Source of the DNA: Candidatus Cloacimonadota bacterium
Lineage (GTDB): Bacteria; Muiribacteriota; UBA6191
Assembly: GCA_023954715.1 (NCBI GenBank)
Contig: JAGSHD010000001.1
Location: forward strand, 1-64,000
Direction of reading: 5' to 3'
DNA length: 64,000 bases
Shown: one piece after another, positions 3,452 through 38,666 of the stretch
How positions within the stretch are numbered: position 1 is the stretch's first letter
How the letters are laid out: the number at the start of each line of letters is the position of its first letter
Notes under the pieces: generated by a model
Seen by the model: the letters and a program-made list of their open reading frames with translations, nothing else
Database searches by the model: none
What the model was told of the DNA's origin: nothing
Made by a program: the position numbers and the translations under genes

Positions 3452-4402
3452 ATGCTATTAGATGATGTCAAAAATCGTATTCGAAGACTAAACTATAGTA
3501 TGAGAACAGAAACAGCTTATCTTTATTGGATAAAGCGATTTATTTTGTTTCATGATAAAACTCATCCTTCTTTAATGTGCAATACTCATGTTGAAAAGTT
3601 TCTTACCGATTTAGCGATCTCACACAATGTTGCTGCTTCCACCCAAAATCAGGCACTGTCTGCTATTTTATTTTTATATAATGAAGTACTGAAGTTGGAG
3701 TTAGACTGGGTAAAAGGAGTTAAACGTGCTAAAAAGCCCACTAAATTACCCGTTGTGTTTTCTGTAAATGAAATAAAGTCAATCTTTTGCCAACTCAAGG
3801 GTGATAATCAACTTGCCGCTGAGTTACTTTATGGCTCTGGACTTCGATTAATGGAGTGTTTACGTTTACGTGTCGGAGACATTGACTTTGAATACAAAAG
3901 AGTCTGTGTCAGGCAAGGAAAGGGTGCAAAAGATCGTTACACTATTTTGCCCAACTCAATTATACCTACCTTACAAAAACATATTTCTCATGTGGAGCAA
4001 TTACATAAGCAAGATTTAGCTGATGGTTATGGCGAAGTTTATTTGCCAGTTGCTTTAGATAAAAAATATAGATCCGCCAACACTGAGCTAACATGGCAAT
4101 ATGTTTTTCCTTCACGAAAATTGTCTTTTGACAAACGTTCTGAAAAAACTCGACGTCATCATATATCAGAAAAGGGTTTACAAAGAGCTGTAAAAAGAGC
4201 AATTGATCTAGCTAAGATTCATAAGCATGGATCGTGTCATACTTTTAGACATAGTTTTGCCACTCATCTTTTACAATCTGGTGCAGATATACGGACCGTA
4301 CAAGATCTTTTAGGACATAAGGATGTTAGGACTACCATGATCTATACGCATGTTTTAGAAATGGGATTTGGCGGTGTAACTAGTCCAGTAGATTTGCTGT
4401 AA
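3452..4402 (+). CDS. intI: Integron integrase (IntI-type tyrosine recombinase), apparently intact
   Basis: Catalytic motifs [43 protein letters not shown]; IntI-specific insert '[37 protein letters not shown]'. Confidence 0.93.
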
Positions 4403-14268: not shown

Positions 14269-14817
14269 CTATGCTTCTTGAGCCATGGCTTGTTCTAGCT
14301 CTGTATATAGATCTTGATATTTTTTAGTAAGCTCTAGACCACCCATATCTGTCTCTACTTTTTGGTACTGGTCATTAACTTTTTGTTTGCTATCTTGATC
14401 CAAACTATTTTCAGCCATAGGATATAAAATATTATCCTCTTTGAAGATATGATCTCGTAGTAATAGACCATAAGACTGAAGACCTTCTTTTAAGATAGCT
14501 ACATCAGATGCTTCATATCCCTTAACCATTTTTGCTACTAACTCTCGACCCATATCATGCTCATGAAGCATTTGACCAATCGGATTACAATGTGTTAAAA
14601 CTCCTGGCTCGCCTAAACTAGTAAACAAGATATCCTCTTCTTTTGCATGATGATATCCATCAGCGTACTCTTTTATAAAGTTTACAAAAAGAGGGGCCTT
14701 TTCTAAAAGCAAAGCATCATTTGCATTGTCCACATAGCTCATAGATAAACCTATAAATTTTAAAATTAGTTGATGTTCTTCCATTAATTTAGCACTGACT
14801 TCTATCATTTTACTCAC
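14269..14817 (-). CDS. Hemerythrin domain-containing protein
   Basis: 'LMEEHQLILKFI...YHHAKEEDILF...MLHEHDMGRELV...DHIFKEDNILYP'. Confidence 0.9.
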   Translation of the reverse strand: MSKMIEVSAKLMEEHQLILKFIGLSMSYVDNANDALLLEKAPLFVNFIKEYADGYHHAKEEDILFTSLGEPGVLTHCNPIGQMLHEHDMGRELVAKMVKGYEASDVAILKEGLQSYGLLLRDHIFKEDNILYPMAENSLDQDSKQKVNDQYQKVETDMGGLELTKKYQDLYTELEQAMAQEA

Positions 14818-16519
14818 CTTTTAAAGACATAATTTCTGTATATTTAAACAAAGAGCCAACACATCGGGGAGCTTGCTGATTACAGTTTTGTCGGTAAGGA
14901 CCATGCTCCTCACACCAAATATTACCATGTCGATCTGACTTTAACATTTTATGAAAAGCCGTCTCTGGATGTTTTGGTATGTTGCCAAGTAGTTTTTTCT
15001 TAACTAATGTGTCCAGTGCAATTTTTGTGCCATTGAATTTCATTTTCATTGAAAATCGAGAGTTGTAGTCGCTCAATGCATTCATAGCTATAGCTTGAGC
15101 ATCATGACATTGAGTAGAGTCTAAGCGATAAAAGTACTTTTTAATGATAGGACTATTTGCCAAATGTGACAAAGTGGCCTTCTGTAACTCTAGTGATAAT
15201 TGACAATTTGGGTCAGAATCAATACTCGGGTCGCATTTCTTTTCAAAGGGTCCATGGGTAGTACACCACAAGTTATCCCTCTGGTCGCTTCTATATCGAT
15301 CCTTATTATTGTCATAAAATAGATTTTTTATGTATCTTTTATCTATGAGTTCAATTTGATCTACATAGCTCTTAACGATAATTTTCTTTCCGGACTCTAA
15401 AGAATACAGTGACAGACTACCTTTTAATAGTTTTTGTTTTTCAAAACACTCGATGAGTTGCTTTGCTGACTTTGGAGTCTCCGTATCACTCTTGTCCACA
15501 TACGATAGATTATTGGCTTCAATTTGAACTTTAATTTTTTCAAAGCTGCTTCTAGAATTTTGATAAGCAACTTTTAAAAATTTTGAACTCAAAAGCTCTT
15601 CTGCTCTTTGTAGTTGTTTACGACACTCCTTAATTAACCCTCTTTCACTCAAAGTGGATAGTCCAATTCGTTTTAATCTAACATCGTCTCTTAAAAAGTG
15701 AGATAAAATTTTATACCAATAAAAAGTAGCTTGTGGATTTTTCTTTATCTGATTGGAAAATTGAAAGGCCAAAAAATAGATGGACTCACCAAAACCATTT
15801 AAAGCTGATTTTTTTAGTAAAACATAAGCTGCTTTTTTATCTAACTTAGGACTCCAAGAAAAAAGGATTCTGCCTTTTACATATTGGTACAAGGGATCAT
15901 CATAAGTATTCATGACAGAAATAATCTGCCAAGCTTTATCTAGTTGACCCAAATCCACATGGGATCTAGCCACTGCTAACTGTGACCAACGTAGAACTTG
16001 CTCATCATAACTAGTAACAAAACGAATCTCATCTTGTTTAATTTTAGTCATTACTTGAAAGACCCATTGATAAATCTTTTGTGCTGAAAGCACATATTTT
16101 CGTTTATAAAACTGATCGCAAATATCCAAATAATAACTCCACAATCGAGAGTCAACAATTTGAGGATGTTGTAACAGATAATCCATATTTTTTTGTAACA
16201 ACTCCATAGCTGGGTCATCGTTATCACTCAGCAAGTATACTAAAGCTATTTTGTTTCGGAGTCTTATCACCAATTTATTGTAAGTAAAATTTACTTCATT
16301 CTTTTTTAAAGAACTTTCTAATATAGAGAGGGCCTCACTATATTTTTTAGTTTCAATCAAGGAGTTTGCTTGGGTTAAGATTCTTTCTACTTTATCTAAT
16401 GAGCAAAAAGAGCTTGAATAAAAGAAGCAGAATAAAATAAAAACTAGGATGACTTTCATAAATAACCTTAGACAATCAATAAGCGAGATAGGATCAAGTT
16501 TTAAAAAAATGTTAAACAA
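14810..16519 (-). CDS. TPR protein with C-terminal CxxHGP / pilin-like repeats
   Basis: 'CTTHGPFEKKC', 'CHDAQAIAMNALSDYN...LDTLVKKKLLGNIPKHPE...NIWCEEHGPYRQNC'; hydrophobic N-terminus. Confidence 0.6.
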   Translation of the reverse strand: MFNIFLKLDPISLIDCLRLFMKVILVFILFCFFYSSSFCSLDKVERILTQANSLIETKKYSEALSILESSLKKNEVNFTYNKLVIRLRNKIALVYLLSDNDDPAMELLQKNMDYLLQHPQIVDSRLWSYYLDICDQFYKRKYVLSAQKIYQWVFQVMTKIKQDEIRFVTSYDEQVLRWSQLAVARSHVDLGQLDKAWQIISVMNTYDDPLYQYVKGRILFSWSPKLDKKAAYVLLKKSALNGFGESIYFLAFQFSNQIKKNPQATFYWYKILSHFLRDDVRLKRIGLSTLSERGLIKECRKQLQRAEELLSSKFLKVAYQNSRSSFEKIKVQIEANNLSYVDKSDTETPKSAKQLIECFEKQKLLKGSLSLYSLESGKKIIVKSYVDQIELIDKRYIKNLFYDNNKDRYRSDQRDNLWCTTHGPFEKKCDPSIDSDPNCQLSLELQKATLSHLANSPIIKKYFYRLDSTQCHDAQAIAMNALSDYNSRFSMKMKFNGTKIALDTLVKKKLLGNIPKHPETAFHKMLKSDRHGNIWCEEHGPYRQNCNQQAPRCVGSLFKYTEIMSLKGE

Positions 16520-28339: not shown

Positions 28340-29845
28340 ATGGCTATACCAAAACTAAAACAAGAACATATAAAAGTTATATTAAGCTTTTTTGGATTAT
28401 TCTTTTTACTTTGCTCTTATTATGTCATCAAACCATTTAGAGCAGGGGTTTTTTATAAAGAATTTACTTACCAAACAGCTCCCTATTTACAACTTTCATG
28501 TATTGTAGGGTCTTTATTGCTTACTCGAGCGTTTACTAGTTTTTATAAAAAGCTATCTAGCATCCATTTGGTCATATCCTCTTATTTTATAATGGGCTTG
28601 ATTCATGTATTGTTTTACTTTTTACTTGGAATTGGCTTTGCTACAAAACCGATTGCATTCGTCTTTTGCTTATGGGCTTCCATCTATTTTTTATTGGCTT
28701 TGGCAATCTTATGGGGTAATACCAATCAGATTTTCTCTTCAAAACAAGCGAAAGTCTATTATGGTTTTGTACTCTTTGGTGCTTTATCCGGTAGTACCTG
28801 TGGGTCTATGTTGAGCTCGTATATTATTGATGCAGGATACCTAGACTATAGCCTTCTGTTTTCTGCTGCTTTAATGACAATTAGTATAGTTTTTATCTAT
28901 TTTGCTGATCATTTCAATGTGGATATTATTGAGCAAAGCGCACAAGATGCCAAAAATATAGCAGAGGACAAAAAGATTTCCAGTGGTTTTGTAACAGACC
29001 TGAAAGCCTTGTTTAAAAAACACTATTTGCTATGTATCGCTGTTATGGTGTTTTCACTTACCTTTTCTAAAACAGCATTTGAGTACCGAACCTTACCAAT
29101 TATAGACCAAGAAATCAGTAAAAAGGTTTTAAATAATCATTTCCAACTTTTAGATCAAGGTACTCAAAGTAACAGGTCATCTCTCAATGTATCTTTATTA
29201 AAGATGATTCAATCACTTAAAAAATTAGACGATCAACAACGTTTAAAGTCCATTGGTCAATTTGTAAAAGATCACCAATTAACTAGTGAGCCCAAACTAA
29301 TTTTAGATCAATATCATAATTATCAAAAAGATTATCAAAAACAAATTAGTTTTTGGCATAATCAAACTCAAAACTATCAAAATATATTAGCCATAATTAT
29401 TTTATTATTCGGAAGCAGTTTCATTCTTCGAAAACTTGGTGTAGGTGTAGCTATCTGTTTACTTCCATTAAGTTTTTTTATCTTACTTATCATAACTAAT
29501 TTTGATGTGGGTTTACTTACTGTCCAGATTTGTAAAGTAATCGTGGGAGCACTAGATTTTAGTATTAATAATGCATCTAAAGAGTTACTTTTTGTATGCG
29601 CTAGCTCTGAAGCAAACCTACGTTTTAAACCATTCATTGAAGGACCTATATTTAGATTAGGTAATGCCTGTTCTGCACTTATATTTATTTGTTTAGCAAG
29701 TTTAGTTGGAGTCAACTCTCAAATTGTATTTCTTATCTTTGCTCTAATCATCGTATCCATTTGGTTTATCAAAGCTAGAGACGTGGCCAAACAATATCAT
29801 CAGCTAGATGCCTTAAATAGAGCTACTCCAATATTGGGATCTTGA
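28340..29845 (+). CDS. NTP/NDP exchange (ATP/ADP carrier, TlcC/NTT-like) family transporter
   Basis: 'EHIKVILSFFGLFFLLCSYYVIKPFRAGVFYKEF', multiple TM helices, 'SINNASKELLF'. Confidence 0.7.
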   Translation: MAIPKLKQEHIKVILSFFGLFFLLCSYYVIKPFRAGVFYKEFTYQTAPYLQLSCIVGSLLLTRAFTSFYKKLSSIHLVISSYFIMGLIHVLFYFLLGIGFATKPIAFVFCLWASIYFLLALAILWGNTNQIFSSKQAKVYYGFVLFGALSGSTCGSMLSSYIIDAGYLDYSLLFSAALMTISIVFIYFADHFNVDIIEQSAQDAKNIAEDKKISSGFVTDLKALFKKHYLLCIAVMVFSLTFSKTAFEYRTLPIIDQEISKKVLNNHFQLLDQGTQSNRSSLNVSLLKMIQSLKKLDDQQRLKSIGQFVKDHQLTSEPKLILDQYHNYQKDYQKQISFWHNQTQNYQNILAIIILLFGSSFILRKLGVGVAICLLPLSFFILLIITNFDVGLLTVQICKVIVGALDFSINNASKELLFVCASSEANLRFKPFIEGPIFRLGNACSALIFICLASLVGVNSQIVFLIFALIIVSIWFIKARDVAKQYHQLDALNRATPILGS

Positions 29846-30536
29846 TAGTAAAGCTTGAGCCAAAACCTTTTTTACTAATGACTTTGATTTCTCCACCAAG
29901 GGATAGAAGTAGATTTCTTATGTAAAATAGTCCATAACCACTTCCGTGCTGCTTTGTAGAAAAACTCTCATCAAATACTTTAGGGATCTGCTCTTGGGAA
30001 ATACCGCACCCATAGTCTTTGAACTTTATACAGATAAACTTTTTATACGAAGATAATATTATATCAAAATGTTTACTTACATTACCTTTTTGAGCGTCAA
30101 AAGCATTATCGTATAAGGTTTTGAGAATGCTTTTAAATTGGGATTGATCTACGACTAGAGGTCGATTGTACTCTATGTAATTGAATACAGTGGTTTCCAT
30201 TAGATCTGATTTTGGTGCTGTAAATAGCTCAATTTGCTTAACAGGATCAATTAACACTCCTGCACTAAATATTTTTTTCAATGAGCCAAACTTTAGTTTT
30301 TTCTTTCTAAAATCTTTTTGTAGACCTCGAAAGACTTCAATTGTTTCGTCTAATCTAGATTTAACTGCTTTGGCTGTATGGATTTGAATTCTACTTGGGT
30401 CTTTAATCACTAAACTAATAAAACAGCCTAAGATATTTAAATCTCCTGCTAAATCATGAAACACCTTAGCCAAATCTTGATCTTGTGATAATTCTGCAGT
30501 CATGTAAATTCCCCCAAATTTAAAACTCCTATCCAT
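29823..30536 (-). CDS. Soluble sensor histidine kinase
   Basis: H-box-like 'VFHDLAGDLNILG'; 'LYDNAFDAQ' N-box; 'FKDYGCGI' ; 'FDESFSTKQHGSGYGLFYIRNLL'. Confidence 0.85.
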   Translation of the reverse strand: MDRSFKFGGIYMTAELSQDQDLAKVFHDLAGDLNILGCFISLVIKDPSRIQIHTAKAVKSRLDETIEVFRGLQKDFRKKKLKFGSLKKIFSAGVLIDPVKQIELFTAPKSDLMETTVFNYIEYNRPLVVDQSQFKSILKTLYDNAFDAQKGNVSKHFDIILSSYKKFICIKFKDYGCGISQEQIPKVFDESFSTKQHGSGYGLFYIRNLLLSLGGEIKVISKKGFGSSFTIKIPILE

Positions 30537-30761
30537 AAAAGGATAGAAAGTAAATGCATGTACTAGAGGGATTCATAGTGGAAACCAAGGTGAAAAACTA
30601 TCCCATAATTGACTTATCGGATCGATACACTTAATAGTTTATACTGATTTACACTTTTTTACATTTTAGGGGTGTTTTTGTATGATATACTATTCCTATG
30701 CCTGTATATAAGGTACTTTTTTGATAAAATATAAGGTTAAATTATATAGCCACATTATCCC

Positions 30762-32168
30762 GTGAGGTTCTTTTTGAAATTAGTCAGTCAAAGCAAAACT
30801 CAAAGTTCTGCAATATCCTATACGATTCCGGTCCTTGAGTATACCTGTAAATCTCTAAATGAGATCGTAGTAGACTATTACAACATGCAGTTTGACCAAG
30901 TCAGCGAAGCTCATATATACGATAATTACAAAACAAAACCAAGTAATAAAAGCATCATTACAAAGTTACGACAAAAGGTTTTTGCAAAACTAAAAGCCTT
31001 AGGTAAATTACAGGTCGAATATAATGACTTGATCAAAACATCTGACACTAACGACAATCTTGGCGAAACAATATCCGATCTTTTTTTTCAGGAGTTAAAA
31101 CTCCATTGTAAAAATAAAATAGATTATGATATTGCATGTTCTTTGTTAGAGTCCATAGACGAACAAGGATATTTAACTCATCCACTATCTACACTTGCAA
31201 ACAATTTTAATATTGATGTAGAAGAGCTTTTAGCAATAAAAAAAACGATCCAGAAAATCGAGCCAATTGGTGTGACATCACGGGATTTTGATGAGTATGC
31301 ATTGATCTATATCCAAAGTATAAAAGATAAAATCATTCAAAAAAAAGGGACACAACTTTATTCATTTTATATAGACTTTTTCAAAAATCATTCCAGAAAC
31401 TTTAGACTCAACTCTCAAAAAACTCTGAGTCTACTGCAAATTGATGCTGAAACTTGTCGAACCCAATTGCAAGAACTTCAAAAATTTGGGATCAAACTAA
31501 ATCCTATCACTCAACATCAACTCAAAAAGAAAGCTCCAGTAGCAGAGCTACAAGTCAGTTTACACAATAATAATTTAACTATCAGTAGCATTAATGACTT
31601 ACACAGTTACGCCAACTTAAAAAAGACTGATATAGAGTTTTACTCCAATGCTATAGAAGGCATAGATGACCCCGAACTTCTAAAAAAAATGGCTAGTCAA
31701 TTGGTTCATTCTAGGTCTCAGTTATATGCAGTATACATCCGAATGGATAACCTAACTCGTATTTCTAAGGCTATTTTAAGTGCACAATTACAATGGTTTT
31801 TACACGGTGATGGAGCTATGAACGTATTGCGCTATCAAGACATTTCAGACGCTACGGGGATAAGTAAAAGTGTGGTCTGTCGTTGTGTAAATGAAAAATA
31901 TATTTTGTTTAATGACCAGTTAATCGAGTTAAAATCTTTTTTCTCAACGGGAGTAAAAGACAAAAACGGTCAACTCCATAGTCGTATAAAAATAAAACAC
32001 TCAATTAAAATGTTGATTCACAATGAAAATAAAAAAACGCCTTTAAGTGATGTAAAGCTTCAAAAAGCCATTGAAAGCAATTACAATATCAAACTAACCG
32101 TAAGAGTAGTCGCCAAATATAGAAACGAACTCAAAATACCTGACTATTCTAGTAGAAGAAGTGGCTAA
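30762..32168 (+). CDS. rpoN: Divergent RNA polymerase sigma-54 factor
   Basis: 'LLESIDEQGYLTHPL', 'IEPIGVTSRDFDEYALIY', 'ISDATGISKSVVCRCVNEKYI...ELKSFFSTGV', RpoN-box-like 'VRVVAKYRNELKIP'; GTG start. Confidence 0.85.
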   Translation: MRFFLKLVSQSKTQSSAISYTIPVLEYTCKSLNEIVVDYYNMQFDQVSEAHIYDNYKTKPSNKSIITKLRQKVFAKLKALGKLQVEYNDLIKTSDTNDNLGETISDLFFQELKLHCKNKIDYDIACSLLESIDEQGYLTHPLSTLANNFNIDVEELLAIKKTIQKIEPIGVTSRDFDEYALIYIQSIKDKIIQKKGTQLYSFYIDFFKNHSRNFRLNSQKTLSLLQIDAETCRTQLQELQKFGIKLNPITQHQLKKKAPVAELQVSLHNNNLTISSINDLHSYANLKKTDIEFYSNAIEGIDDPELLKKMASQLVHSRSQLYAVYIRMDNLTRISKAILSAQLQWFLHGDGAMNVLRYQDISDATGISKSVVCRCVNEKYILFNDQLIELKSFFSTGVKDKNGQLHSRIKIKHSIKMLIHNENKKTPLSDVKLQKAIESNYNIKLTVRVVAKYRNELKIPDYSSRRSG

Positions 32169-35100
32169 AGTTACCAAAGAGATAAAAGAAATCATTATCA
32201 AATCCACCTTACATGAAATTTGTAAGGATGGAAAAATTGACGATCTAGAAAAAGAAGTACTTATCAACCTAGTTAAGTTCTTGAAGTTTCCTAAATCAGA
32301 GGTAAATAGTTTAAAAAAGCAAATTACTAAAGAAATTTCAGTGGATACTAGCCTTGGAACATTAGACCCTGATTACCTAATATGGTCCATAGAAAGAAAA
32401 CTTAAAAATCTTCTTGAAGAGACTTCAATCCAAGCTCTACTTAACAAAATTAAACCCATTATTTTTGAAGAACCTCAAGTTATCGAAGCCTTTGAAATTC
32501 ATGAGCTTCAAGAAAAGTCCCTACAAGATAAAGTTTTACAAGAGTCCCAAACTCCACAAATGCCTTGGGAGCAAGATAAAGAAGAGAGACTTCGTAAAGA
32601 GTACGAAGACCGAAAAAAACAAAAAGAAGAGCAACAACGAATTCGGCATGAAAAATATCATTCTGGACCAAAGGATCTTAATATTGATGCAAGTAATTGG
32701 GAGGATTATTGCACCAGTCGAATCAATCCTGAGTCCATCAATAATTTGCAAGAGGTTGTCTTTTATATTGACCAAGGTCAACATAAACAAGCCTTAAACT
32801 ATTTATTAGATTATTCTCATTCCTTTAATTATGACCTCAGATATTTACTGATTGCTCGATTATATTTTGAACTCAATGAGATTAAAAAAGCAAAGCAATA
32901 CTTAAAAAAATCACAAGATAGTGGACTACAACAAAGTATTATTGATAGAGAGAATTTCATTTATCAAACATATAATCAATATGATGAAGATCAATGGATT
33001 ACAATCTTAAAAGGGCAGCTAAACAAAACAGATTTAAAAAACGATGATTGCTATAATGCTTTACTTAATGACTTGATTTCACGAGGTAGAGCAGATATTG
33101 CCAATCGGCTTTTAGAAAGTTTTCAATCAAATCTAAAAGATTATCCAATCTCCACTCAAAAGAAAACACAAATTAAAAAGTATTTTTACAAAGACATATA
33201 CTATGGCTATTACGGCCCGATCATCTTGATTCTTCAGATACTCTTTGCCTTTTTAATCTTGTTTGTTTGTACTTTTAATAGAGAGTATTTTTTTATTGCT
33301 ATAAATGATTTATTACGGTCTATTGTATCGGGAGTTCCGGATCAAGATATATTTTTATCTAGCTTTCATCGTGTAGCCCCGTACCTTTTTTTGTTAATTG
33401 CCCTGGCTCCACTTTTATACGTCAATTGTAAAGTAATGATAGCCGGAATTCGAAATAGGGTAAACTCAGCCGTACAAGTTATGACCAATTACATAAAGGT
33501 TACCAGTTTTGGTAAGGTCTATCATCTCGGTATTCAAAATAAGTCCAGTACCTTCTATATATATGAAGATGATACTGATTATTCTTATATATCATTAGTT
33601 AGACATTTACCATTCATTCCTAATTTTACCTACGCCTATGCTTACGATGAACTCAGAAAGATTTATGTGTTACTTCCATTATATGGTATTGCTGATAGTT
33701 ACTTTTTTGAAAGAAATCATATTTCTAAAGGTAAGGGTAGTACAGCACCTATAAATATGTTTGGTGTTCGCTTTGCTCAAGTAGCCTCTGTAATAGCCCA
33801 AATCAATCAGTCCTATTTAGCCTTAGGTCCAATACTTTTAGGATCAGCCGCCTTTTTCTATGCTAGTTTAAACTTTGCATCTGATGTACAGTTAAAATCA
33901 TTTATAGTTATGTTAGCTATCTATATAGTCTCTATTGGCTTTTATTTCATTTTTCCACGGCTATTTTTATGGTGGATGAAAATACCTTATTTATCAAAAC
34001 CATTTAGTATTAATATAATCAAGCCAGGAATCGTATTATTAAGTGTATGGTACTTTGCTATGCGCTATGTTCCTTATGGAATTTCGAGTGTGGTTCCTAT
34101 TATTGCTTGTAGTACATGCTTTTATTTAATCTTTGTACGGTCCAAGTATTTTGGTGATACCAAACAAATTGTAGCAGAGCTAACCTCACTTGGTGATTCA
34201 AACAACACGGATGGCGATATTTCTGAATATGCACTAGGTTTAAAATATTTAAATTTAGGTAAGTCAAATAGCTTAATTCCTAAAAATGTAGGGCTATTTT
34301 ACAACGAGGAGTATGTTGCCTTAAAAAGAAGCATATTAGGTCTGACACTCTACTATGATGTGGTCAAAAGAACCTCTAAATTTAACATCTCTATTCAAGA
34401 CAATAATGATAACAGCATCGTTCGCATTGGAAACTTCAACTATCAAGTAAAATCTCGGGCAAAAGATATCCAAGAGAAATGTAAACTTGCAAACTTAGAT
34501 AGTGGTCTAAACTCCACATTAAAACCATCCAAATCTAAAATTCATTTGCCCGGTGTTTTCGTCTGCTTTTTGGTATTTAGCTCGTGGCAATACTATCAAT
34601 TTCTACAATTACATACCGCAAATGGTGAAAGTCTATCCGTAGATAATAAAACTTATAAAATTGCTTTGGAATATCTTCGATCAAATGATAACAAAATCTC
34701 TCATTCTTTACATGATCAAGACTATATCTATAAAAATATAGAAGACCAACGTATCGTCCAGTATTTTCAATCACGAGCAATGACATGGCAAGAGTTAGAA
34801 AACTCGATCCGACATGGTTTAGATAAAAAAGTACAAAAAGAGTTGACAGTTCCTGCATACATAAAAAAGGATGGATACCGAGAGGATGTTTGGGTATTTA
34901 TGTATTGGCACTCATATTTAGCCAATAAGGCTATAGATAATCTAAGATATGGACAAGTTATCAAAGACTATTGTCACTCTGCTCAAATGTCAGCCGTAGC
35001 CGAAGGATACAATATACGCTGTGCCATATCCTTTGATTATGACACTATTATAAAAAATGTCTTAAATGCAAAAGAGGTTCCGAGTTTCATACCAACTACT

Positions 35101-37482
35101 TTAATGGCTTCTTTAACACGTGAAAATGGTTTACTACTAGAGTTTGCTGATCAAAAGGCTCAATCTAATTTTGATGTTGTTTTAAAAGCCGTTAAAAATA
35201 ATGGATTGGCTTTAAAGTATGCTAGTAGCCACCTACAAGATGACAAAGATATCGTTTTAGCTGCTGTCCAAGAAAACTATCTTGCCAGTCAATACATGGC
35301 AAAGCGATTCTGGAGTTCCGTTCCTATTGTAGAAAAACTAGTAAGTAAGGACGGCTTATTATTAACAAATGCCAAAGCATCTATAAAGTCTAATAAAAAA
35401 ATTGTTTTAAAGGCTTTAAGATCAAATTACTTAGCCTATAAAAGCATGGATTCATCTTTGCTTAATGACAATGAGATTGCTCATCATATCTTAGCTAAAG
35501 ACGGATTACTTCTGAATATTCTCAATAAAACTCAAAAACGATCTAAAGAGTTGGTTAAAGTGGCCGTATCACAAAATGGTTTAGCATTAAAGTATTGCGA
35601 TGATCGCTTTCATTCGGACTCTGAAGTAGTAGCCTTAGCTATATCATCTGATCTAAAAGCTAGTAAAATCATGGACCAAAGCCTCTGGGAAAACAAAGAG
35701 GTAGTCATTCGAATAGTAGGAAAAAATGGACTCTTATTAAATAAAGTGCCTAAAAGGTTTAAAGCGGATCGAGACGTTGTAATTAGTGCCTTAGGTAATA
35801 ATTATCGAGCAGCTAGCTATATGACCCCTGTATTATACGAAGATGCTGAAATAGCAAAAATTGTTTTACAATCTGATGGAATGTTTTTAGGTAAAGTTCA
35901 CTCGAAATTAACTAAAGATAGAGAATTAGTTAAAATAGCCTGTGCCTCAAACGGTAGGGCTTTTCAGTTTGCTGACCCAATATTTTATAAGGACAAGGAG
36001 CTCATATCTTTAGCTTTTAAAACATATAAAAAATCTATTGTTCGCTTGGATCCTTCACTGAAAGACGACTATGATTTCTTTTTACAATTGATGAAAATTG
36101 ACTTGAGTGCCTTGCAAGCAAGTGAGCTGGATCATGAGGTGGTAGCTCTAAAAGCAAATGCGGGTAATGTGCAATATCAAACTATGTTAGCCTATCTTTA
36201 TGAATATGGAATTGGCACAAAACCAGACTACAAACTGGCCAAAAAATGGTATTTAAAAGCCTCTGATTTTGGTCATTTACAAGCAACTACACAACTAGCT
36301 ATTTTACACTCTAAGATTAAAGGGGAGTCTCAAACATCCTGGAAATACCTCTCACAAGCAGCAAAAGAATCTTATGTGCCCGCTATGGTTGAGTTTGCTA
36401 AAATTCATGATGCTAGAACAGGCACTTTCAAAGATGATGCCTTAGCTAGAAACTACTATTTTAGAGCTAATGACGCCAAAAGTATAGACGCTAGCTTTCA
36501 ACTAGCTCGTTATCAAGAGTATGGTTTTGGTGGTGCCAAAAACATAAAAGAGGCAATCAAAAATTATAAAAATGCCTACTATAATGGTCATAAATACGCT
36601 CCGACTTATTTAGGTTTAGCTCGTTTATTTGGACAAGGAGTCGACAAAGATCATAATAAATCTTTTTTCTACTTTTTGGATGGCAGCAAACGAGAAGACT
36701 CTTGGGCTATGTTCTTTTTGGCCCTATCTTATCAACACGGAATCGGAACCAAAGTAGATCAACAGGCTGCCAAACTATGGTATAAACAATCTCAACAACT
36801 AAATAATCCCTTAGCTGGAGTTTTTGCAAATAGCAATTTAGACCGGTCCATTTTATCCAATGCAAGCTCATTAAAGCATTGGCTAGACAAAGCATCCGAT
36901 AAAAATCTAGAGCACCCACTCTTAATGAAAGCCTACTTTTATCAAGAAGGCCTATTTGGATACAATATAAATATAGCACTAGCAAAATCACTCTATGAAC
37001 AAGGTTCATTGCCTTACTCAAAATTTTATTTGGCCAAAATGAAATACAAGCAAAAGCATTTATCTAGTGATGAATATAGACAAATTCTTTTTGACTTAAG
37101 CAATAGCATAGATGCTGCCAAAACCCAGTACTCTCAATTAATATTCAGTGAAAAAGAGTTTAAATCAGACTATGAATTAGCTTTTTCACTTTTAAAAAAA
37201 GCTGCTAAAAATAATTATCTGCCCGCCATGACAGCCTTAGCTATTTCTTATGAAAGGGGACTGGGGACTAAAGCAAACTCTACCCTAGCTTTAAAATGGT
37301 TTAAAAAAGCGGCATATTACAATGATGTGGAGGCTAAATTTAATCTAGGAATCGTATATGAGTTTGGACGTGGGGTTAAAAAAGATCTTAAAAAAGCCAA
37401 ACACTGGTACCAGATTGCTTCATTTGCTAATCACCCAAAGGCTATTTTAAGTCTTATTTTTCTATACGAAAACTACAATTAA
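32161..37482 (+). CDS. 1773-aa multidomain membrane protein: TerB-like N-terminus, TM segments, DUF4116-like repeats, Sel1-like repeats
   Basis: GTG start overlaps the sigma-54 stop; 'DGKIDDLEKEVLINLVKFLKFPKSEV'; TM segments ~33.2-34.6 kb; 'NGLALKYASSHLQDDKDIVLAAV' repeats; 'AMTALAISYERGLGTKANSTLALKWFKKAA' Sel1. Confidence 0.85.
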   Translation: MAKVTKEIKEIIIKSTLHEICKDGKIDDLEKEVLINLVKFLKFPKSEVNSLKKQITKEISVDTSLGTLDPDYLIWSIERKLKNLLEETSIQALLNKIKPIIFEEPQVIEAFEIHELQEKSLQDKVLQESQTPQMPWEQDKEERLRKEYEDRKKQKEEQQRIRHEKYHSGPKDLNIDASNWEDYCTSRINPESINNLQEVVFYIDQGQHKQALNYLLDYSHSFNYDLRYLLIARLYFELNEIKKAKQYLKKSQDSGLQQSIIDRENFIYQTYNQYDEDQWITILKGQLNKTDLKNDDCYNALLNDLISRGRADIANRLLESFQSNLKDYPISTQKKTQIKKYFYKDIYYGYYGPIILILQILFAFLILFVCTFNREYFFIAINDLLRSIVSGVPDQDIFLSSFHRVAPYLFLLIALAPLLYVNCKVMIAGIRNRVNSAVQVMTNYIKVTSFGKVYHLGIQNKSSTFYIYEDDTDYSYISLVRHLPFIPNFTYAYAYDELRKIYVLLPLYGIADSYFFERNHISKGKGSTAPINMFGVRFAQVASVIAQINQSYLALGPILLGSAAFFYASLNFASDVQLKSFIVMLAIYIVSIGFYFIFPRLFLWWMKIPYLSKPFSINIIKPGIVLLSVWYFAMRYVPYGISSVVPIIACSTCFYLIFVRSKYFGDTKQIVAELTSLGDSNNTDGDISEYALGLKYLNLGKSNSLIPKNVGLFYNEEYVALKRSILGLTLYYDVVKRTSKFNISIQDNNDNSIVRIGNFNYQVKSRAKDIQEKCKLANLDSGLNSTLKPSKSKIHLPGVFVCFLVFSSWQYYQFLQLHTANGESLSVDNKTYKIALEYLRSNDNKISHSLHDQDYIYKNIEDQRIVQYFQSRAMTWQELENSIRHGLDKKVQKELTVPAYIKKDGYREDVWVFMYWHSYLANKAIDNLRYGQVIKDYCHSAQMSAVAEGYNIRCAISFDYDTIIKNVLNAKEVPSFIPTTLMASLTRENGLLLEFADQKAQSNFDVVLKAVKNNGLALKYASSHLQDDKDIVLAAVQENYLASQYMAKRFWSSVPIVEKLVSKDGLLLTNAKASIKSNKKIVLKALRSNYLAYKSMDSSLLNDNEIAHHILAKDGLLLNILNKTQKRSKELVKVAVSQNGLALKYCDDRFHSDSEVVALAISSDLKASKIMDQSLWENKEVVIRIVGKNGLLLNKVPKRFKADRDVVISALGNNYRAASYMTPVLYEDAEIAKIVLQSDGMFLGKVHSKLTKDRELVKIACASNGRAFQFADPIFYKDKELISLAFKTYKKSIVRLDPSLKDDYDFFLQLMKIDLSALQASELDHEVVALKANAGNVQYQTMLAYLYEYGIGTKPDYKLAKKWYLKASDFGHLQATTQLAILHSKIKGESQTSWKYLSQAAKESYVPAMVEFAKIHDARTGTFKDDALARNYYFRANDAKSIDASFQLARYQEYGFGGAKNIKEAIKNYKNAYYNGHKYAPTYLGLARLFGQGVDKDHNKSFFYFLDGSKREDSWAMFFLALSYQHGIGTKVDQQAAKLWYKQSQQLNNPLAGVFANSNLDRSILSNASSLKHWLDKASDKNLEHPLLMKAYFYQEGLFGYNINIALAKSLYEQGSLPYSKFYLAKMKYKQKHLSSDEYRQILFDLSNSIDAAKTQYSQLIFSEKEFKSDYELAFSLLKKAAKNNYLPAMTALAISYERGLGTKANSTLALKWFKKAAYYNDVEAKFNLGIVYEFGRGVKKDLKKAKHWYQIASFANHPKAILSLIFLYENYN

Positions 37483-37659
37483 ACATATTAATTTTTAGTG
37501 CTGTCACTTGTAAAAATTGCAGAGTTTGTTTAAAATTCTTTCACTTAATGATCTCAAACTCCTACTCTAAATTTTTTACTTAGCTAATCCAAAAGCGAGT
37601 TTAGTTCAATTCAAAATCATTTGAGTATTTATTTTAAACAATTGGTATAAGGTGGCAAA

Positions 37660-38619
37660 ATGAAAAAGTTATTATTTGTTGGTGTTTTTGGACTTAGTGT
37701 TATTCACTCCTTTTCTAATACTGCCTTAAACTCATGGACTCAACTTTCTACGATTGCACCGATTATTAGCACTAGGGCAAATCTAGTCAATCTGGCTAAA
37801 AACAATGTCAATAATTGGATTAACGCTATTAATATAAATTTTGTTAAACAAAATATGGATGTGAGCATTGTTGCTAACTTTATTAATAATGACTCTATAT
37901 TTCATATTGACTTGCAAGTTATAGGTGACAAAAATTACAACTTAACTGATTCTTATCTAGCTCAATTGTTTATGGGATTAAACAAGCAGATTAATATAAC
38001 TTTAGAGCCATATCAGCTTCAACTCAATGCACAAGAGCTAAAAGGTAAGGTTTCTGTTACTGATAAAAAGAATAAAGTTTTTAAAGCTCTAGAGTTTACT
38101 GAGATATTAAAAGCATTATCTGGCAACAAAGTTCTGAAAGAGGCTCAAGATCTATTAATCAAAATGGGCGCTGTTGACCAAGATATGAGACTTGGCAAAA
38201 CAAAATATGACGTAAAAGTAGATCAACAACACATAACCACTCTTAAAGCGATCATAAAAAAGATAGGGTGGCCAACCATCGATAAGGTAGGAGCTCAAGC
38301 ATCTCATTTTGCTTGGTTATTAGTACAGCACGCCGACTTTGATTTAGACTTACAAAAAACCGTTTTACAATATTTAAAAACCTTAAAACCAGATCAGTTC
38401 AATCCAAATGAGATCGCATATCTAACAGATAAAATCCTAATTCAAGAAGGCAAAAAACAAATTTACGGAACACAGTTCAAAGTAGATAAAGACAAAAACA
38501 TAGTCCCAGAACCAATCAGCGACTACAAAGAACTAGACAAACGACGAGCCACACTAGGACTAGAAAACTTCAAAAGCTACCTAAGCAAGCTCTACTCAAT
38601 CTACGGCAAAAAGAAGTAG
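37660..38619 (+). CDS. Secreted protein with DUF6624-like C-terminus
   Basis: Signal peptide; 'IIKKIGWPTIDKVGAQASHFAWLLVQHADFDLDLQKTVLQYL...IAYLTDKILIQEGKKQIYGTQF'. Confidence 0.75.
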   Translation: MKKLLFVGVFGLSVIHSFSNTALNSWTQLSTIAPIISTRANLVNLAKNNVNNWINAININFVKQNMDVSIVANFINNDSIFHIDLQVIGDKNYNLTDSYLAQLFMGLNKQINITLEPYQLQLNAQELKGKVSVTDKKNKVFKALEFTEILKALSGNKVLKEAQDLLIKMGAVDQDMRLGKTKYDVKVDQQHITTLKAIIKKIGWPTIDKVGAQASHFAWLLVQHADFDLDLQKTVLQYLKTLKPDQFNPNEIAYLTDKILIQEGKKQIYGTQFKVDKDKNIVPEPISDYKELDKRRATLGLENFKSYLSKLYSIYGKKK

Positions 38620-38643: not shown

Positions 38644-38666
38644 AAAGCCTACATCTTGTAGGCTTT
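38644..38666 (+). terminator. Rho-independent terminator
   Basis: AAAGCCTACA-TCT-TGTAGGCTTTTTTT. Confidence 0.85.

Follow-up and report, generated by a model that had tools for sequence, protein, structure and literature searches.

A sigma-54 paralogue without recognisable region I, overlapping the gene of a giant membrane protein in a marine Muiribacteriota genus

Can a sigma-54 factor serve a cell without the part of the protein on which its activators act? The hallmark of sigma-54 is that it depends on ATP-driven activators, a dependence seated in region I. The question is raised by a gene within the first 64,000 nucleotides of contig JAGSHD010000001.1 of Candidatus Cloacimonadota bacterium (phylum Muiribacteriota; assembly GCA_023954715.1)—a stretch that is called the window in the following. 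The gene (30774–32168, plus strand) encodes a divergent sigma-54 paralogue of 464 amino acids, here called sigma-54*, and runs into the gene of a polytopic membrane protein of 1773 amino acids, here the giant protein (32161–37482, plus strand). An earlier, sequence-only reading of the window had listed open reading frames at 30762–32168, 32161–37482 (1773 amino acids) and 37660–38619, all of which are present as described. Sigma-54* occurs in this genome (G000) and in that of a congener, the metagenome-assembled genome NORP72 (G001), both from uncultured, marine bacteria.

The most unusual feature of the locus, which the sequence-only reading had passed over, is that sigma-54* has no recognisable region I, that is, no activator-interacting domain (AID), which is well supported by several kinds of search. 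The Pfam AID model (PF00309) does not match the isolated N-terminus of sigma-54* even at E<=10, while it does match the canonical protein of the same genome. Local profiles for the AID, the core-binding domain (CBD) and the DNA-binding domain (DBD) were built from 28 canonical sigma-54 proteins of the phylum. On the AID profile sigma-54* scores at noise level—134 of 200 shuffled sequences score as well—compared with 53–89 bits for the 28 canonical proteins; by the same method, it reaches 43.7 bits for the CBD and 101.5 bits for the DBD. The LTPQLQ-type motif is gone from sigma-54* in both species. Within the class of this genus, there is one AID for three DBDs in the own genome, two for three in the congener (with the canonical gene duplicated in the assembly), one for one in the sister genus and one for two in each of five genomes from two further families. 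Outside the class, the two numbers are equal with one split-contig exception (40 relatives counted). The doubled canonical rpoN region of the congener lies on contigs C36 and C40 with the same neighbours, and is probably an assembly redundancy (9% contamination is listed for this genome).

A mis-called start or a frameshift that conceals region I is ruled out, as the frame opens just four codons upstream of the GTG codon at 30762 (472 versus 468 amino acids) and a six-frame search of the whole genome finds a single AID beside its three sigma-54 DBDs. The GTG codon had been proposed as the start of sigma-54*. The frame is indeed open from there, but TTG 30774 is the likelier start because it has a suitably spaced GAGG Shine–Dalgarno sequence and lines up with a TTG start behind AAAGG in the congener.

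At the position of region I, sigma-54* bears a replacement N-terminus of 56 residues (residues 1–56, 30774–30941, plus strand). It is 59% identical between the two species with a ratio of nonsynonymous to synonymous differences (pN/pS) of 0.29, no less constrained than the remaining part of sigma-54*; the AID of the canonical RpoN pair from the same two genomes is 96% identical. By the searches above the replacement N-terminus is non-homologous to region I, and by these comparisons it is under purifying selection.

The remainder of the protein is sigma-54, in agreement with the initial assignment. The DBD, comprising helix-turn-helix (HTH) and RpoN box, matches PF04552 with E=3e-34 (118.5 bits, cut-off 22.8), and the CBD matches PF04963 with E=2e-14 (54.4 bits, cut-off 22.9), the latter match being partial and covering positions 9–109 of ~190 in the local profile. 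The RpoN box of the sigma-54* pair reads T/S-V/I-R-V-V/L-AKYRN. With 186.4 bits, sigma-54* misses the TIGR02395 equivalog cut-off of 277. Numbered by alignment with the solved E. coli sigma-54 protein, the DNA-contact residues R336, R383, R456, K460, Y461 and R462 have kept their equivalents, while E378 is changed to K and R455 of the RpoN box to V or I. Hence, we infer an altered promoter preference for sigma-54*.

The genome also holds a canonical rpoN, which was one of the points raised by the sequence-only reading; the refuting case named there, of a window gene that is the sole and canonical rpoN, does not apply, which speaks for that reading. The canonical gene lies on contig C6 beside yebC/ruvC and encodes all three Pfam sigma-54 domains. 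Canonical RpoN and sigma-54* share the core-binding domain (weak in sigma-54*), the extra-long-helix/HTH region and the RpoN box in the same order, but differ in region I, in the two changed contact residues and in overall sequence, with an identity of ~26%. Between the species sigma-54* is 56% identical, compared with 88% for canonical RpoN. Its pN/pS is 0.36 over the whole gene and 0.27–0.29 in the HTH region and the N-terminus, with pS saturated. As an extra, AID-less and genus-restricted copy, sigma-54* fits the earlier description as a dedicated, possibly specialised sigma factor.

Sigma-54* and the transmembrane (TM) module of the giant protein were found in the congener (56 and 58% identity), whereas the 41 remaining genomes of the phylum have neither; the sister genus has canonical RpoN only. 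A scan of genome contigs for relatives elsewhere gave the congener alone, and the best matches of sigma-54* in a tblastn search of plasmids were ordinary RpoN proteins with <28% identity. A phage or defence origin was considered and rejected, as there was no PHROGs match and no convincing PADLOC match. The arrangement is hence genus-specific, with two uncultured marine genomes so far. Lack of the AID itself is wider within the class. A third sigma-54 of the own genome, 125 kb beyond sigma-54* (G000:C9:156369-158387; L068:6370-8388), is 672 amino acids long; it has CBD and DBD but lacks the AID, carries a C-terminal extension of ~240 amino acids and lies among secreted or lipoprotein-like genes. 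In addition, five genomes of two sister families (L073–L077) encode a sigma-54-like protein in which the DBD alone is recognisable. These three AID-less forms make up no single clear family: in a tree, very long branches divide sigma-54* from the other two, with a stem of ~3.8 changes per column, which the program flagged as unsafe.

The giant gene starts inside the 3' end of the sigma-54* gene, as had been noticed, and an identical overlap of 8 bp is present in the congener (L063: giant start 8657, sigma end 8664). The giant protein consists of a cytosolic N-terminal domain, TPRs, ~7 TM segments and a DUF4116/Sel1 solenoid of ~950 residues that is probably periplasmic. Hydropathy and charge suggest this topology, with the N-terminus inside and the DUF4116/Sel1 part outside; two TM segments, near residues 620 and 800, are under threshold and were placed by eye. 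Pfam recognises six DUF4116 stretches (residues ~981–1320, 35101–36120) and six Sel1 stretches (residues ~1321–1773, 36121–37479). A published fold prediction makes DUF4116 an alpha-solenoid (PMC8078820).

The TPR and TM module (residues ~191–795, 32731–34545) has no Pfam match and belongs to a family that counts exactly three proteins per genome in the two congeners and none in the 41 others. The other two members (L064:6093-8492, 799 amino acids; L065:4690-8301, 1203 amino acids) carry the motif R-L-PF-PN, and have neither the first ~190 residues nor a sigma neighbour. Among the three TM-module proteins, the N-terminal domain of ~105 residues (32161–32475) is hence specific to the sigma-linked one. 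The domain order TerB–TM–DUF4116–Sel1 had been proposed for the giant protein; TM, DUF4116 and Sel1 are borne out, but a TerB identity of residues 1–105 found no support, with no Pfam family at E<=10, no sequence relative in the PDB and the motif KDGKIDxxEK as the sole likeness. A low-confidence model of this domain is all-helical.

How might sigma-54* be controlled, then? To our knowledge, all known activators of sigma-54 act through region I, and a factor without it is therefore not expected to respond in the usual way to bacterial enhancer-binding proteins (bEBPs). In ordinary sigma-54 it is region I that touches the GAFTGA loop of bEBPs and that keeps DNA from being loaded and open complexes from forming spontaneously; its deletion yields activator-bypass forms of sigma-54, which transcribe pre-melted DNA (PMC2680985, PMC7057263). 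Sigma-54* is probably controlled otherwise than through the usual activators. As no bEBP was found within the 64-kb window and a membrane protein is coupled to sigma-54* by translation, control by this partner is the most economical guess. Sigma-54* might be a bEBP-independent factor that is held or released by the giant protein—a tentative reading, whose step of partner control we only infer. In such a scheme, sigma-54* would bind core RNA polymerase and direct it to few promoters with −12/−24 elements unlike the canonical ones. Gating would fall to the giant protein, with its cytosolic N-terminal domain and its periplasmic solenoid: it would keep sigma-54* at the membrane until a periplasmic cue, perhaps sensed jointly with the secreted DUF6624 protein encoded downstream, leads to release.

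The outline would be that of an extracytoplasmic function (ECF) sigma factor and its membrane anti-sigma factor. In ECF operons, the sigma gene is coupled to a downstream membrane anti-sigma gene, whose product has a cytosolic N-terminus and a periplasmic C-terminus. The locus resembles these operons in its translational coupling and in the orientation of the membrane protein, but ECF factors belong to the sigma-70 and not to the sigma-54 family, and the partner of sigma-54*, with ~7 TM segments in 1773 residues, bears none of the known anti-sigma domains. It would be a further step to see here an AAA+-free pathway of the sigma-54 family, in which a coupled polytopic membrane receptor holds an AID-less sigma-54 and acts both as anti-sigma factor and as sensor of the periplasm; this we consider distinctly improbable.

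Several points weigh against control by the giant protein. Overlap, topology and conservation are what links it to sigma-54*, and a physical interaction of the two is conjecture. Activator-bypass forms of sigma-54 initiate only from pre-opened DNA (PMC7057263); hence, escape from bEBPs alone gives no active sigma factor. The first ~105 residues of the giant protein recur in a 511-amino acid membrane protein of the congener that has no sigma-54 neighbour. Both AlphaFold models—built on alignments of only two sequences, with a mean pLDDT of 43 for sigma-54* and of 37 for residues 1–830 of the giant protein—were too poor, and a structure-based annotation of the two proteins was dropped. Finally, most genes lying between 14 and 64 kb in the window have counterparts in order on one contig of the congener (G001:C43). 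The giant gene does follow sigma-54* in the sole congener, as the sequence-only reading would have it, and the linkage holds in two of two genomes with either gene, but the genes around are just as syntenic. The conserved adjacency therefore adds little, and was largely rejected as evidence for a functional pair. Likewise, of the idea that the sigma factor controls, or is controlled by, a membrane scaffold, the conserved adjacency and overlap stand, while control itself is hypothetical and nearly the whole block is conserved too. Once synteny is discounted, what is left is the conserved overlap, the shared fast evolution of the neighbours and the fact that sigma-54* and the TM family are both confined to the genus.

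Of about equal weight with partner control is the explanation that sigma-54* still depends on bEBPs: quite possibly, if short of an even chance, its 56-residue N-terminus is a region I that has diverged past recognition and is served by a special bEBP encoded elsewhere. The segment has the right length, begins with MKL like canonical region I, can be set co-linear with it without gaps and is conserved, and the equivalents of R336 and R383 are kept. The other AID-less forms also keep such company: a few genes downstream of the third sigma-54 of the own genome lies a bEBP whose GSFTGA loop is normal (L068 14306-15736), and the DBD-only gene of one sister-family genome (L074, G004) stands beside genes for a TPR-histidine kinase, a response-regulator bEBP and PspA. 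Moreover, the own genome has bEBPs with an altered GAFTGA loop, for example one with GTATGV that is present in both congeners. On the other hand, the profile and shuffle tests leave no residual AID similarity, neither species retains the LTPQLQ-type motif, and the window links no bEBP to sigma-54*. The GTATGV bEBP is a possible dedicated activator of sigma-54*, but is unlinked in the own genome, where it stands beside an ABC/HlyD export cluster. The two GTATGV proteins (L134 on G000:C21 and L146 on G001:C43) are apparently orthologous; the genes adjoining the former encode a peptidase-C39 ABC exporter and HlyD. In the bEBPs L137 and L150, the GAFTGA loop is wholly absent.

It appears unlikely that sigma-54* is a non-productive regulator, which binds DNA or core polymerase so as to compete or repress at sigma-54 promoters or at ones that overlap, its neighbours being simply co-expressed. 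The need of activator-bypass forms for pre-melted DNA would fit such a role (PMC7057263), as would the partial core-binding match, and sigma-54 can repress where its site overlaps another promoter (PMC4591121). However, the changes at E378 and R455 argue against competition for the same sites as the canonical paralogue, and no −24/−12 site was found in the intergenic and promoter regions of the locus. That sigma-54* is a neutral relic, a decaying extra rpoN beside unrelated genes, is hardly credible, since its long branch and its faster evolution than canonical RpoN are met by a frame intact in both species, by the low pN/pS values and by the conservation of start codon, Shine–Dalgarno sequence and overlap.

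The surroundings of the pair add the following. A candidate promoter of sigma-54* (TTTACA-17-TATGAT, 30658–30686, plus strand) is of the sigma-70 type and weakly conserved in the congener. Downstream, the gene at 37660–38619 (plus strand) encodes a protein of 319 amino acids that matches PF20329 with E=1.4e-18 and has a signal peptide by inspection, in line with the secreted DUF6624-like protein announced earlier; it occupies the same place in the congener with 61% identity. Its sigma-70-type promoter (37508–37536, plus strand) reads TTGTAA-17-TAAAAT in the window and TTGTAA-17-TAGAAT in the congener. Promoter-like matches are as frequent in this AT-rich locus as in shuffled sequence, so that this promoter carries weight only through its cross-species conservation. 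Having a conserved promoter of its own, the DUF6624 gene need not share the sigma-54* transcript. The terminator called at 38644 is there as a hairpin followed by a T run (38644–38666, plus strand). In the congener (L063:15004-18453), the DUF6624 gene instead overlaps a following hybrid histidine kinase gene with four receiver-domain stretches. Divergent from sigma-54*, and at the corresponding position in the congener as well, lies the gene of a small soluble histidine kinase (29823–30536, minus strand) with HATPase_c and an FHDL motif, no recognised HisKA and no adjoining response regulator. Farther away, a perfect −24/−12 sequence, TGGCAC-N5-TTGCA (15017–15032, minus strand), of which the genome has three exact matches in all, precedes a hemerythrin gene (14269–14817) by ~200 bp and lies within the preceding open reading frame. 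A tyrosine recombinase of the phage integrase family (3452–4402) is 72% identical to the product of a gene elsewhere on the syntenic contig of the congener (G001:C43:3858-4805).

Lack of the AID in sigma-54 is not unheard of: a CBD–DBD architecture of RpoN is tabulated in a 2025 survey of sigma-54 (PMC12316311), which has the domain content of sigma-54* and is given there as an architecture only, with no partner, neighbourhood or function in the sections consulted. Sigma-54 with region I deleted in the laboratory (PMC2680985, PMC7057263) likewise has no region I, but is a truncation, whereas sigma-54* is natural and bears a conserved replacement N-terminus. Specialised sigma-54 paralogues are also found in Rhodobacter sphaeroides (RpoN1–4, cited in PMC12316311) and in Ralstonia solanacearum (RpoN1/2; PMC4371752, PMC4676750); these are ordinary RpoN copies, for which loss of region I is not reported in these sources. 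For the conserved replacement N-terminus and the coupled membrane partner, a search of open-access papers turned up no description. A natural, selected sigma-54 without recognisable region I is a ready experiment on the rewiring of sigma-54 to another kind of control. With three AID-less forms in one class, and a normal copy kept in each genome that bears them, this has the look of a route to regulatory innovation that was taken repeatedly.

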